Origin: Opitutia bacterium
GTDB taxonomy: Bacteria; Verrucomicrobiota; Verrucomicrobiia; Opitutales; UBA953
NCBI GenBank assembly: GCA_947470855.1
Contig: CANIUQ010000003.1
Span: 38,888 to 102,887, forward strand
Direction: 5' to 3'
DNA length: 64,000 nt
Shown: in pieces, positions 51,454 to 54,966 of the stretch
How the letters are laid out: each line of letters opens with the position of its first letter
Numbering within the stretch: the stretch's first letter is position 1
Made by a program: the position numbers and the translations under genes
The notes under the pieces: generated by a model
What the model saw: the letters and a program-made list of their open reading frames with translations, nothing else
Told to the model about the DNA's origin: nothing
Database searches by the model: none

Positions 51454-52842
51454 ATGCCATCGCAAGAAGAACTAAGAAAAAAATTGCTCGAGCCTCCTCT
51501 TTTTGCGGAAAAAATTTGGAAACTCTCACCTGAGCCTTGGCCCATCACTGAAGCTCAACTGAAGAGCTTAAAACTTATCGGCCAAGCTTGTTTAAGTTAT
51601 CACCGAGCTTTGGAACGTCTTTACGTTCGATCCTTTACCGATAAGAAAATCTTACGTAATCGCGATGTACACGCACGTTGGGTTGCCGATTATCTGGATC
51701 GCTACAAGCCCCAAGGCCTAGTTGAACACGGCCGACACCGCGCTATCAAGGGCCAGTGTCCCGTCGTTCTTCGACCCGACTTGCTCATCACCGATCAAGG
51801 CTTCACTCTCACCGAGTTAGATAGTGTGCCTGGCGGGGTTGGTCTGACTGCCTATCTCAATGAGGTTTATGCCGAAGATTACCCTCAAGTCATCGGTGGA
51901 ACCCAAATACCCGAGCGCTTTTTCCAAGCACTCAATCGTTTAACGCCACTTCAGCGCTTTCCGCTGGTGGCCATTGTCGTGAGTGAAGAATCTGCCACTT
52001 ACCGTCCGGAGTTCGAGTGGTTGGGCGAAAAACTTCGCTCACTTGGACACGATGTCCACGTCATCGATCCATCGCAGATTATGCAAATGGGCGAAGAGTG
52101 TTATATCCCCGTTGATGGTGCGCCGCGCAAAGTCGATTTAGTTTATCGTTTCTTTGAATTGTTTGATTTGGCTAATGTGAAGAGTGCCGATGGGATTTTT
52201 AATAGCGTCGAAGCCGGGAAACTGGTGCTCACGCCTCCCATGAAAGCTTTCCAAGAGGAAAAACTAGGACTGGCTCTCCTACACCACCCTATCCTTTCCG
52301 AATTCTGGAAAGAAAATCTGCCAGAAGATCATTACGAGGTGCTTTTTCGTTTAGTGCCCAAGACCTGGATTATGGAGCGTACCGATTTGCCACCGACCGC
52401 CGTACTCTTTGCTCCGCCCGTCAATGGCCGTCCGATTCGTGAATGGGACGAATTAGCCGAAGCCTCACAGCGAGAACGCCATTTCATCATCAAGGCCAGT
52501 GGCTTCCATGAAACCGCCTGGGGAGCACGCAGTGTAACACTCGGTAGCGATGTTTCACGTGAGGAATGGATTGAAGCCATCGATAACGCTCTCGATCCAG
52601 AGAACGAAACCTTCCACATTTTACAGGAGTATCATAAACCATCCCGACTCACGCATCCGGTTTATGCCAGCGATGGTTCGATTACTCAAGCTGAGGGTCG
52701 AGTGCGACTTTGCCCCTATTATTTTGTCGATGGCGATACTGTCGAAATCAGCGGCATTCTCTCCACCTTTTGTCCAGCGGATAAGAAGATTATCCATGGC
52801 ATGAAAGACGCTGCTTTACTGCCTTGTCATCGTATTTCTTGA
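51454..52842 (+). CDS. ATP-grasp-like protein of unknown function
   Basis: 462 residues, cytoplasmic, family not named. Several blocks resemble circularly permuted ATP-grasp/glutathionylspermidine-synthase-type enzymes: LTELDSVPGGVGLTAYLNEVY (acidic metal/substrate loop), VDLVYRFFELFDLANV, LTPPMKAFQEEKLGLALLHH, then HFIIKASGFHETAWGARSV and FHILQEYHKPS, which look like the ATP lysine and the QEY hinge. Such enzymes join a carboxylate to an amine. It lies four bases after prfB and is probably co-transcribed; no functional link is obvious. The fold call is by eye. Confidence 0.65.
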   Translation: MPSQEELRKKLLEPPLFAEKIWKLSPEPWPITEAQLKSLKLIGQACLSYHRALERLYVRSFTDKKILRNRDVHARWVADYLDRYKPQGLVEHGRHRAIKGQCPVVLRPDLLITDQGFTLTELDSVPGGVGLTAYLNEVYAEDYPQVIGGTQIPERFFQALNRLTPLQRFPLVAIVVSEESATYRPEFEWLGEKLRSLGHDVHVIDPSQIMQMGEECYIPVDGAPRKVDLVYRFFELFDLANVKSADGIFNSVEAGKLVLTPPMKAFQEEKLGLALLHHPILSEFWKENLPEDHYEVLFRLVPKTWIMERTDLPPTAVLFAPPVNGRPIREWDELAEASQRERHFIIKASGFHETAWGARSVTLGSDVSREEWIEAIDNALDPENETFHILQEYHKPSRLTHPVYASDGSITQAEGRVRLCPYYFVDGDTVEISGILSTFCPADKKIIHGMKDAALLPCHRIS

Positions 52843-52899: not shown

Positions 52900-54966
52900 A
52901 TGCGTTTCTGGGTTTTGTTTCTAATAGCACTAACCAATCTCACAACGGATTGTTTGGCTGCCGCTCGCACTCAGGTTGACTTGGTTAATCTGACGCCTGA
53001 AATCGAGCCCAAGAAAAAAATTCTCATCGGCGTGCGTTTTCGCTGCGACCCTAGTTTTCATATTTACTGGAAAGTACCTGGTGATGCAGGCCAACCCCCT
53101 TCCATTACTTGGCGTGAGAAAGCTGGATCATCCATCAGTGATTTTCTTTTCCCAGGCCCGACTCTCTACAATCAAAAAGGTATCATCAGTTTTATCCACA
53201 GCGAGGAATCTCTTTTTCTTCTCGAAGTAACCCCTCCCGCCGAGGCTAAAGGAGTTCTTAATCTCAAAGCTAAAGTGGAATGGCTCGAGTGCAATGAAGC
53301 GGGCTGCTATCCTCAAGAAAAGGAAGTCGCGTTATCTTTAAAGATCGGAGAAAAAAATGAGGCCCTCTCGTTTGATTCGCGAAAGTACCCAGATTTACAA
53401 TCTGTGTTGAGTGCCGAAATCATCGATTCGACCAATCAATCCGAATCACAGAATTTAGTCGTTTCACCACCCGCTCCAATAAACCCTGAAGAAAGAAGAA
53501 CCTATTCTTCTATCTGGTTTCCTGAGCGTAACTTCATCACCGCCAGTGCCGTCGACCAACAAAGCCAACAAGGATTCAATAAAGTGTTCAGTTTGAACGA
53601 CGCACCCGAGAAACTTGAAGCCGGTCCACTCTCCTTTATCACTCAAAGTAGCGATGGCACCTTTGTGCGAATAGTCGTAAAAAAGACGACCATAGCACCT
53701 GCCTCAGCTTCAACGAAAAAGCCCAAAGAGAGTCATTCTTTAACTTGGCAACCTTGGTCGCTAGAGTCACAAAATCGTGCACTCAACGACGGAAAAATTG
53801 TTTATATCGATTTTACCGCTCGCTGGTGTGCGACCTGCCAAGTGAATAAGCGCGTCTATACACAAGAAGATGTCCAAAATGCTCTTCTCACTCAATCAGT
53901 CGTTTTACTGAAAGCCGATTGGACCAAAAAAGATGCCGCGATTGCCGCTGAATTAAAAAAATACGGTCGGCAAGGTATTCCCCTAAATGTCTTTCTGAAG
54001 AAAGATCAGGCACCTGTCATCCTTTCCGAGGTTTTGACTGGATCCGAGGTCCTACAAGGTCTCGAAGCGATTACCACGCAAAAACCCCACCTTCTCCCGA
54101 CCACCAATCATTCTTTTTTCTTTTGGCTTAGTTTAGCTTTTCTTGGCGGTGCTATCCTCAATTTAATGCCCTGTGTCTTTCCCATGATAGGAATTAAAGT
54201 TCTGAGTATTGCCCAACAATCACGAGCAGAACCTTCAACCGTTATTCTATTGGGATTAAGTTATACGGCAGGTGTTGTCGTCAGTTTTCTTGGCTTAGCA
54301 GCCATCATTTTGGGACTCAAAGCAGGTGGCAGTTCGATTGGCTGGGGTTTCCAAATGCAGTCTCCAGGTTTTGTACTCGGTACCTCTATCTTGATGGTCA
54401 CGCTCGGACTAAGTTTACTCGGTTTGTTTGAAATCGGCACCTCACTTGCCGGTAAAGCAGGCCAAGTGGACCAATCTCAAAGTTTAGGGGGTTCTTTTTT
54501 ATCTGGAGTTTTAGCCACGGCAGTAGCCACACCCTGTACAGCTCCTGGTTTGGGTGCAGCGCTTGGCTTTGCTCTCGATGAAAATCGCTCAGGGTCAGAA
54601 ACCTTTATACTTTTTAGCGTTATCGGGCTAGGCTTGGCGTCTCCCTACCTTCTCTTCTCCCTCTTCCCCCAACTGGCTCGCTTCCTACCCGCACCAGGAC
54701 AATGGATGATTCACCTTAAGCGTATCCTTGCCTTACCGCTCTTTGCTTATGCGATTTATTTACTCTGGGTCTTAAACGGACTCTCCGAAAAGTCGCTCAA
54801 TCTAACCCAAGTCTCGGTAGGGTTTATTTTCATTACCAGTGCTTGTTGGATTTGGGGACGTTGGACAGCACCTCACTATTCAACACTCACACGATGGATT
54901 GCTGCAACATTTTCGGTCACAATCTTTGTCACTTCAGTTTACTTCCTGTTCGCTAGTTTAACTTAA
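52900..54966 (+). CDS. dsbD: DsbD-like thiol:disulfide transporter with rearranged domains
   Basis: 688 residues. Signal peptide (WVLFLIALTNLTTDCLAA), then the periplasmic n-domain with FHIYWKVPGDAGQPPSITW and its redox pair in WLECNEAGCYPQ (Cys131 and Cys136). Next comes a thioredoxin domain with YIDFTARWCATCQVNK (Cys310 and Cys313). Only after this comes the membrane domain from about residue 404 with eight helices and its two cysteines in LNLMPCVFPMIG (Cys425) and VATPCTAPGLG (Cys546). E. coli DsbD has the thioredoxin domain at the C-terminus; here the protein ends with the last helix (VTIFVTSVYFLFASL). It would still carry electrons from cytosolic thioredoxin to the periplasm. A terminator follows. 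Confidence 0.88.
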   Translation: MRFWVLFLIALTNLTTDCLAAARTQVDLVNLTPEIEPKKKILIGVRFRCDPSFHIYWKVPGDAGQPPSITWREKAGSSISDFLFPGPTLYNQKGIISFIHSEESLFLLEVTPPAEAKGVLNLKAKVEWLECNEAGCYPQEKEVALSLKIGEKNEALSFDSRKYPDLQSVLSAEIIDSTNQSESQNLVVSPPAPINPEERRTYSSIWFPERNFITASAVDQQSQQGFNKVFSLNDAPEKLEAGPLSFITQSSDGTFVRIVVKKTTIAPASASTKKPKESHSLTWQPWSLESQNRALNDGKIVYIDFTARWCATCQVNKRVYTQEDVQNALLTQSVVLLKADWTKKDAAIAAELKKYGRQGIPLNVFLKKDQAPVILSEVLTGSEVLQGLEAITTQKPHLLPTTNHSFFFWLSLAFLGGAILNLMPCVFPMIGIKVLSIAQQSRAEPSTVILLGLSYTAGVVVSFLGLAAIILGLKAGGSSIGWGFQMQSPGFVLGTSILMVTLGLSLLGLFEIGTSLAGKAGQVDQSQSLGGSFLSGVLATAVATPCTAPGLGAALGFALDENRSGSETFILFSVIGLGLASPYLLFSLFPQLARFLPAPGQWMIHLKRILALPLFAYAIYLLWVLNGLSEKSLNLTQVSVGFIFITSACWIWGRWTAPHYSTLTRWIAATFSVTIFVTSVYFLFASLT

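Follow-up and report, generated by a model that had tools for sequence, protein, structure and literature searches.

A reading frame on the forward strand of the window (the whole stretch of 64,000 nucleotides analyzed here) is open over its entire length and encodes a 688-residue protein related to ScsB and DsbD (Table 1). Three Pfam models matched the protein, namely DsbD_N (PF11412) at residues 37–145 (2.8e-10; 40.7 bits against a cut-off of 25), Thioredoxin_7 (PF13899) at residues 283–367 (2.1e-13; 50.6 bits) and DsbD_TM (PF02683) at residues 410–622 (4e-20), the latter two likewise above their curated cut-offs. Since every domain was significant by itself, chance is a poor null for their order. 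The gene is flanked by prfB, an ORF of 462 amino acids, a gene of the OmpA family (PAL-like) and a ThiF-rhodanese gene, with ruvX and truA assigned by reading of the sequence. The 462-aa ORF (51454–52842, forward strand) lies directly upstream of dsbD and had neither a Pfam match at E ≤ 1 nor a sequence match in the PDB. Its identity is 80–87% among members of genus g1; in genus g3, where dsbD is still nearby, it is about 70%. The predicted product is strongly conserved and belongs to no family.

Table 1. Features of the dsbD-like gene in the window (positions as numbered in the window).
Feature	Positions	Strand	Basis
Whole gene, 688-aa ScsB/DsbD-like transmembrane thiol-disulfide reductant transporter, alpha-gamma-beta (N-Trx-TM)	52900..54966	+	Pfam, alignment, predicted structure
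Signal peptide / first hydrophobic helix, residues 1–22	52900..52965	+	Hydropathy; helix 2–19 in model
n-domain (alpha, immunoglobulin-like beta domain), residues 24–148	52969..53343	+	Pfam DsbD_N; Foldseek nDsbD and ScsB N-domain
n-domain redox pair Cys131/Cys136	codons 53290–53292, 53305–53307	+	Both invariant in alignment
Second beta domain, residues 169–262, as in ScsB periplasmic region	53404..53685	+	Predicted strands; 6c29 match
Flexible linker between second beta domain and thioredoxin domain, residues 264–278	53689..53733	+	pLDDT <50; relatives differ in length and composition
Thioredoxin (gamma) domain ahead of membrane domain, residues 283–392	53746..54075	+	Pfam Thioredoxin_7; fold of DsbD-gamma
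Thioredoxin active site WC310ATC313	codons 53827–53829, 53836–53838	+	Motif shared with canonical-order relatives
Membrane (beta) domain, eight helices, residues 406–686	54115..54957	+	Pfam DsbD_TM; hydropathy; model
Membrane-domain Cys425, Cys546	codons 54172–54174, 54535–54537	+	Both invariant in alignment

The full-chain AlphaFold2 model (mean pLDDT 82) showed a beta domain (residues 24–148), a second beta domain (169–262), a linker of low confidence (264–278), the thioredoxin domain (283–392) and the membrane helices (406–686) in this order; with a pTM of 0.53, the relative placement of the domains is not fixed by the model. In a Foldseek search against the PDB, the top match was the N-terminal region of ScsB (6c29; E 1e-8; TM-score by target 0.59; 267 alignment columns, target length 247), followed by n-domains of E. 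coli and Neisseria and then by DsbD-gamma structures, all on one chain. The structural relatives of the thioredoxin domain were DsbD-gamma structures with TM-scores of 0.7–0.76, including 1vrs_D (0.76 by target) and 2fwh. Because the second beta domain is present, the protein is ScsB-like rather than E. coli DsbD-like.

The initial annotation had proposed the order n-domain, thioredoxin domain, membrane domain, with nothing after the last helix, in contrast to E. coli DsbD with its C-terminal thioredoxin domain. Pfam and the predicted structure bore out this order, and the contrast holds. By hydropathy and model, the eighth membrane helix ends at about residue 686, where the protein stops, and the thioredoxin fold expected around residues 280–390 was recovered by Pfam, the model and Foldseek alike. 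What had been missed is the second beta domain between the n-domain and the thioredoxin domain. The product of 52900–54966 is a ScsB-like DsbD homologue with the arrangement alpha-gamma-beta (hereafter N-Trx-TM) in place of alpha-beta-gamma (N-TM-Trx, the canonical order).

Cysteines occur at residues 18, 49, 131, 136, 310, 313, 425, 546 and 649. The six to which a redox role had been ascribed (131/136, 310/313 within WCATC, 425 and 546) were found at these positions, and all were invariant in 20 aligned N-Trx-TM relatives. Cys649 (54844–54846, seventh helix) was invariant in the same 20 relatives and lies outside the known relay cysteines; it is also present in canonical members of family f1, the window's own family, and missing from several other Opitutales.

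The protein was compared with known systems that use a DsbD-type membrane domain. ScsB of Proteus mirabilis, Salmonella and Caulobacter has the same two-beta-domain alpha region, a membrane beta domain with two cysteines and a CXXC thioredoxin gamma domain. However, the membrane domain of ScsB separates alpha from gamma (alpha-beta-gamma; PMC8900818), whereas here gamma sits between alpha and the membrane domain. The two-domain N-terminus of ScsB is thus found without that split and without adjacent scsC or scsD; scsC, scsD and copper genes were not detected among the flanking genes examined. With DsbD of E. coli and Neisseria, the protein has in common three redox modules, six relay cysteines, an eight-helix membrane domain and folds like those of nDsbD and cDsbD. 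Homology to the DsbD superfamily is given by DsbD_TM with two cysteines, DsbD_N with a cysteine pair and a gamma domain of thioredoxin fold with CXXC. E. coli DsbD, unlike the window protein, carries gamma at its C-terminus and a single N-terminal beta domain, and the NCBIfam model for DsbD (NF001419) gave 99.4 bits against a cut-off of 330, so that neither order nor score is that of E. coli-type DsbD. CcdA has a homologous membrane domain and feeds cytochrome c assembly, the use considered below also for the window protein, but is a membrane domain alone, to which n- and thioredoxin domains are added here in one chain. The best NCBIfam E-value was obtained for TsoB (NF045694), a rhodanese/DsbD fusion selenoprotein with the DsbD membrane domain in common; its score of 107.7 bits fell short of the 805-bit cut-off, and the Pfam scan contained no rhodanese. 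A named family with exactly the order seen here would have spoken against the initial annotation; no Pfam or NCBIfam model describes it, and no published family was found in the open-licence literature. Within the ScsB/DsbD superfamily, N-Trx-TM is a genuine and conserved variant in domain order, for which the search turned up no earlier name.

Relatives of the protein (L002–L081) were collected by a scan of GTDB contigs and domain mapping of the loci. Loci L002–L050, mostly from Opitutae, Opitutales and Puniceicoccales MAGs, showed N-Trx-TM; L035–L037, L044, L048 and L049 among them are fragments, some showing part of the order only. Loci L051–L081, from Akkermansiaceae, Verrucomicrobiaceae, other Opitutales and others, showed N-TM-Trx. 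Three loci (L006, L025 and L080) are titled Polynucleobacter or Akkermansia muciniphila, with a dsbD that is Opitutae-like or Akkermansiaceae-like; these MAG titles seem misfitting.

A profile of the junction between thioredoxin and membrane domain (A1) was searched against 388 genomes of the window's phylum. Among the matches listed for these genomes, an uninterrupted junction match occurred in family f1 only, and renewed searching of 80 weakly matching genomes of the phylum revealed no N-Trx-TM among the matches listed. Within f1, which NCBI titles assign to Opitutales/Opitutae, a match was present in 70 of 79 genomes and, by row count, 62 were N-Trx-TM, 7 canonical and 1 a fragment. Approximately the whole query was covered in 59 of the 62; the others were split by a frameshift, interrupted by a scaffold gap or located at a contig end (one each). 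Canonical order was shown within f1 by G397 of genus g200 and by six of the eight members of genus g2, including Candidatus Spyradosoma merdigallinarum (L073 = G398) and gut MAGs, while the other two g2 species are N-Trx-TM. The N-Trx-TM order is rare yet conserved, and rare cases elsewhere may lie beyond the matches listed. One f1 genome carries a second dsbD-like frame (L156, G395:C50, frame at 1860 on the forward strand), which encodes an n-domain followed by a thioredoxin domain with WCVTC and runs to the contig end.

The history of the order was traced in domain trees, in which the support values rest on short domains. In genus g2, the two orders were nearest relatives in the trees of the membrane domain (100/97), the thioredoxin domain (96/93), the n-domain (100/99) and the concatenated domains (100/99). 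Family f1 formed one clade in the concatenated tree (100/99), which needed at least three order changes within the family, as compared to two in the thioredoxin tree and four in the membrane-domain tree; family topology varied among the single-domain trees. A single clade of all N-Trx-TM forms was rejected (AU test, p = 0.0003). As judged from these sequence trees, the order has changed at least twice within f1. Several changes were also needed on a tree of valyl-tRNA synthetase (ValS) used as species proxy, which did not separate gain from reversal: a single gain followed by reversals came at about the same cost as several separate gains.

The survey covered the window's phylum, Planctomycetota and the phylum to which a contig labelled Rhodocyclaceae belongs. 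As had been suggested, domain orders were compared between Verrucomicrobiota and Planctomycetota, and N-Trx-TM was located in family f1 and in one planctomycete group. In Planctomycetota, searched via a contig labelled Phycisphaeraceae, 12 contiguous thioredoxin-membrane junctions were among the matches listed. The N-Trx-TM order of the planctomycete group (L178–L189) was confirmed by HMMs, by the predicted structure of L178, which comprises a beta domain, a thioredoxin domain and the membrane domain (pLDDT 75), and by Foldseek (0.77–0.80 for DsbD-gamma; 0.5–0.6 for the n-domain). These proteins resemble the window protein in order, in all redox cysteine pairs and in the DsbD-gamma fold of the thioredoxin domain, but possess one N-terminal beta domain and are very divergent in sequence. 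Because a 100/99 branch sets the group off in the membrane-domain tree, it is regarded as an independent case. Of 399 genomes in the phylum of the Rhodocyclaceae-labelled contig, 235 had a match, with none contiguous among the matches listed. A tblastn search of plasmids with the junction returned 253 records, and the two that were inspected are canonical and matched in two pieces.

In the membrane-domain tree, the planctomycete N-Trx-TM group lies closest to two canonical-order DsbD homologues of Planctomycetota, L191 (793 aa, frame 2012 on the reverse strand) and L192 (693 aa, frame 1195 on the forward strand). Both frames end at an in-frame TGA in place of the first active-site residue of the thioredoxin domain (FTGHT-TGA-QNC and FTGYT-TGA-PNC), after which the thioredoxin domain reads on, and a stem-loop is predicted shortly downstream. 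The TGA probably encodes selenocysteine; the N-Trx-TM group has cysteine at this position.

Since the window's genome encodes only one DsbD_TM protein, the window protein is its sole DsbD-family candidate for the supply of reductant from inside to outside. Cytochrom_C_asm matched twice in this genome, in a frame of 1063 amino acids read as a CcsBA fusion and in one short CcsA-like protein. Among the encoded proteins are several thioredoxins that resemble TlpA and carry WCPPC or WCGPC; two of their genes lie near the CcsA-like gene. The DsbA families PF01323 and PF13462 had no match in the genome. From this gene content, the protein is likely used as a source of reductant for TlpA/ResA-like proteins and for cytochrome c assembly, as supported by the model of reductant transfer from DsbD to CcsX in System II (PMC4222556). 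With 1.36 Mb at 96% completeness, the genome (G000) is reduced in comparison to the 2.0–2.5 Mb of most of its genus; dsbD is still kept.

The protein most likely operates an ordinary reductant relay, and we infer its electron flow, clients and topology from DsbD, for which the relay has been described (PMC3961690). By this homology, cytoplasmic thioredoxin would reduce Cys425/Cys546 of the membrane domain, this pair would reduce Cys310/Cys313 of the thioredoxin domain, and the latter would reduce Cys131/Cys136 of the n-domain. The n-domain would then reduce periplasmic clients, probably TlpA/ResA-like thioredoxins that serve the CcsBA-dependent (System II) assembly of cytochrome c. With eight helices, the membrane domain is expected to have both ends in the periplasm; the thioredoxin domain could then be attached at either end and, tethered there, would still move between its two partners, membrane domain and n-domain, leaving the order weakly constrained. 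According to Katzen and Beckwith (2000; cited in PMC6299221), E. coli DsbD still functions when its three domains are expressed separately, so the relay would not be expected to require a particular domain order. The initial annotation had stressed that the changed order alters how the relay can be arranged. Because the motifs are equal, the order changed repeatedly in the family and split DsbD is functional, the comparison rather suggests the same chemistry with order as a weak constraint.

Other explanations were weighed against this reading. Most sources are metagenome assemblies, and one relative (L047/L157) has a scaffold gap inside the thioredoxin domain, so the arrangement might be suspected to stem from faulty assembly, binning or gene calling. 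However, many independent assemblies encode N-Trx-TM within a single ORF, and the surrounding gene order is conserved in genus g1. With a thioredoxin-then-membrane match in 62 of the 70 matching f1 genomes, an artefact was rejected and is given next to no weight. In L047/L157, a stretch of N in the scaffold mimics a deletion of the thioredoxin domain. Alternatively, the domain may have been replaced instead of moved, an unrelated thioredoxin gene being inserted before the membrane domain and the original C-terminal domain being lost. Such an insertion and loss is mechanically simple, and an intermediate with thioredoxin domains at both ends was not seen among the loci compared. But the domain carries the DsbD/ScsB-type motif VDFTARWCATCQVNKR, which is also present in canonical relatives, and the WxxWSPE cap upstream of it is alike in N-Trx-TM and canonical forms. 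In the thioredoxin tree, it grouped with the domains of canonical f1 members (100/95 including G397). For these reasons, the thioredoxin domain is considered the family's own, and replacement is very improbable. Somewhat less remote, though still improbable, are two ancient paralogues, one per order, that were differentially lost after a single, long-past move of the domain. The co-occurrence of both orders within family f1, and within genus g2 as well, and the second n-domain-thioredoxin copy in G395 would agree with this. Each paralogue should then form a clade, whereas the AU test rejected a single N-Trx-TM clade and the two orders in g2 were mutually nearest in all four trees. On balance, somewhat better than even odds are given to an intragenic transposition of the thioredoxin domain in f1, several times and perhaps also back, with the relay kept and the same order arising independently in Planctomycetota.

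It is also conceivable that the new order is functional in itself, with a relay geometry or clients different from those of canonical ScsB/DsbD, e.g., a reductant line dedicated to cytochrome c. Retention in 62 genomes of several genera, the second, independent group in Planctomycetota, and a genome with CcsA/CcsBA-type and TlpA-like genes but no match to the DsbA-type families tested are in line with this idea. The catalytic motifs, however, are equal in both orders and fail to separate them, and close relatives are canonical; a functional role of the order is considered unlikely, albeit less so than replacement or ancient paralogy. With a probability of roughly 0.85, the protein is a DsbD-superfamily reductant transporter with a ScsB-like N-terminus, the gamma domain of which was moved to the N-terminal end of the membrane domain, in a family where domain order is weakly constrained and was repeatedly changed.

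Textbook drawings of DsbD and ScsB place the two periplasmic domains at opposite ends of the membrane domain. Annotation rules based on domain order will miss or misname N-Trx-TM proteins. Together with its canonical sister species, the protein with both domains at one end offers naturally matched pairs in which the influence of domain order and tether geometry on transmembrane thiol relays can be tested. The working of the relay does not seem to dictate the order of the domains. If transposition did occur repeatedly, the family would represent a natural experiment in which gamma acts as a tethered shuttle and its attachment point on the membrane domain is near neutral.
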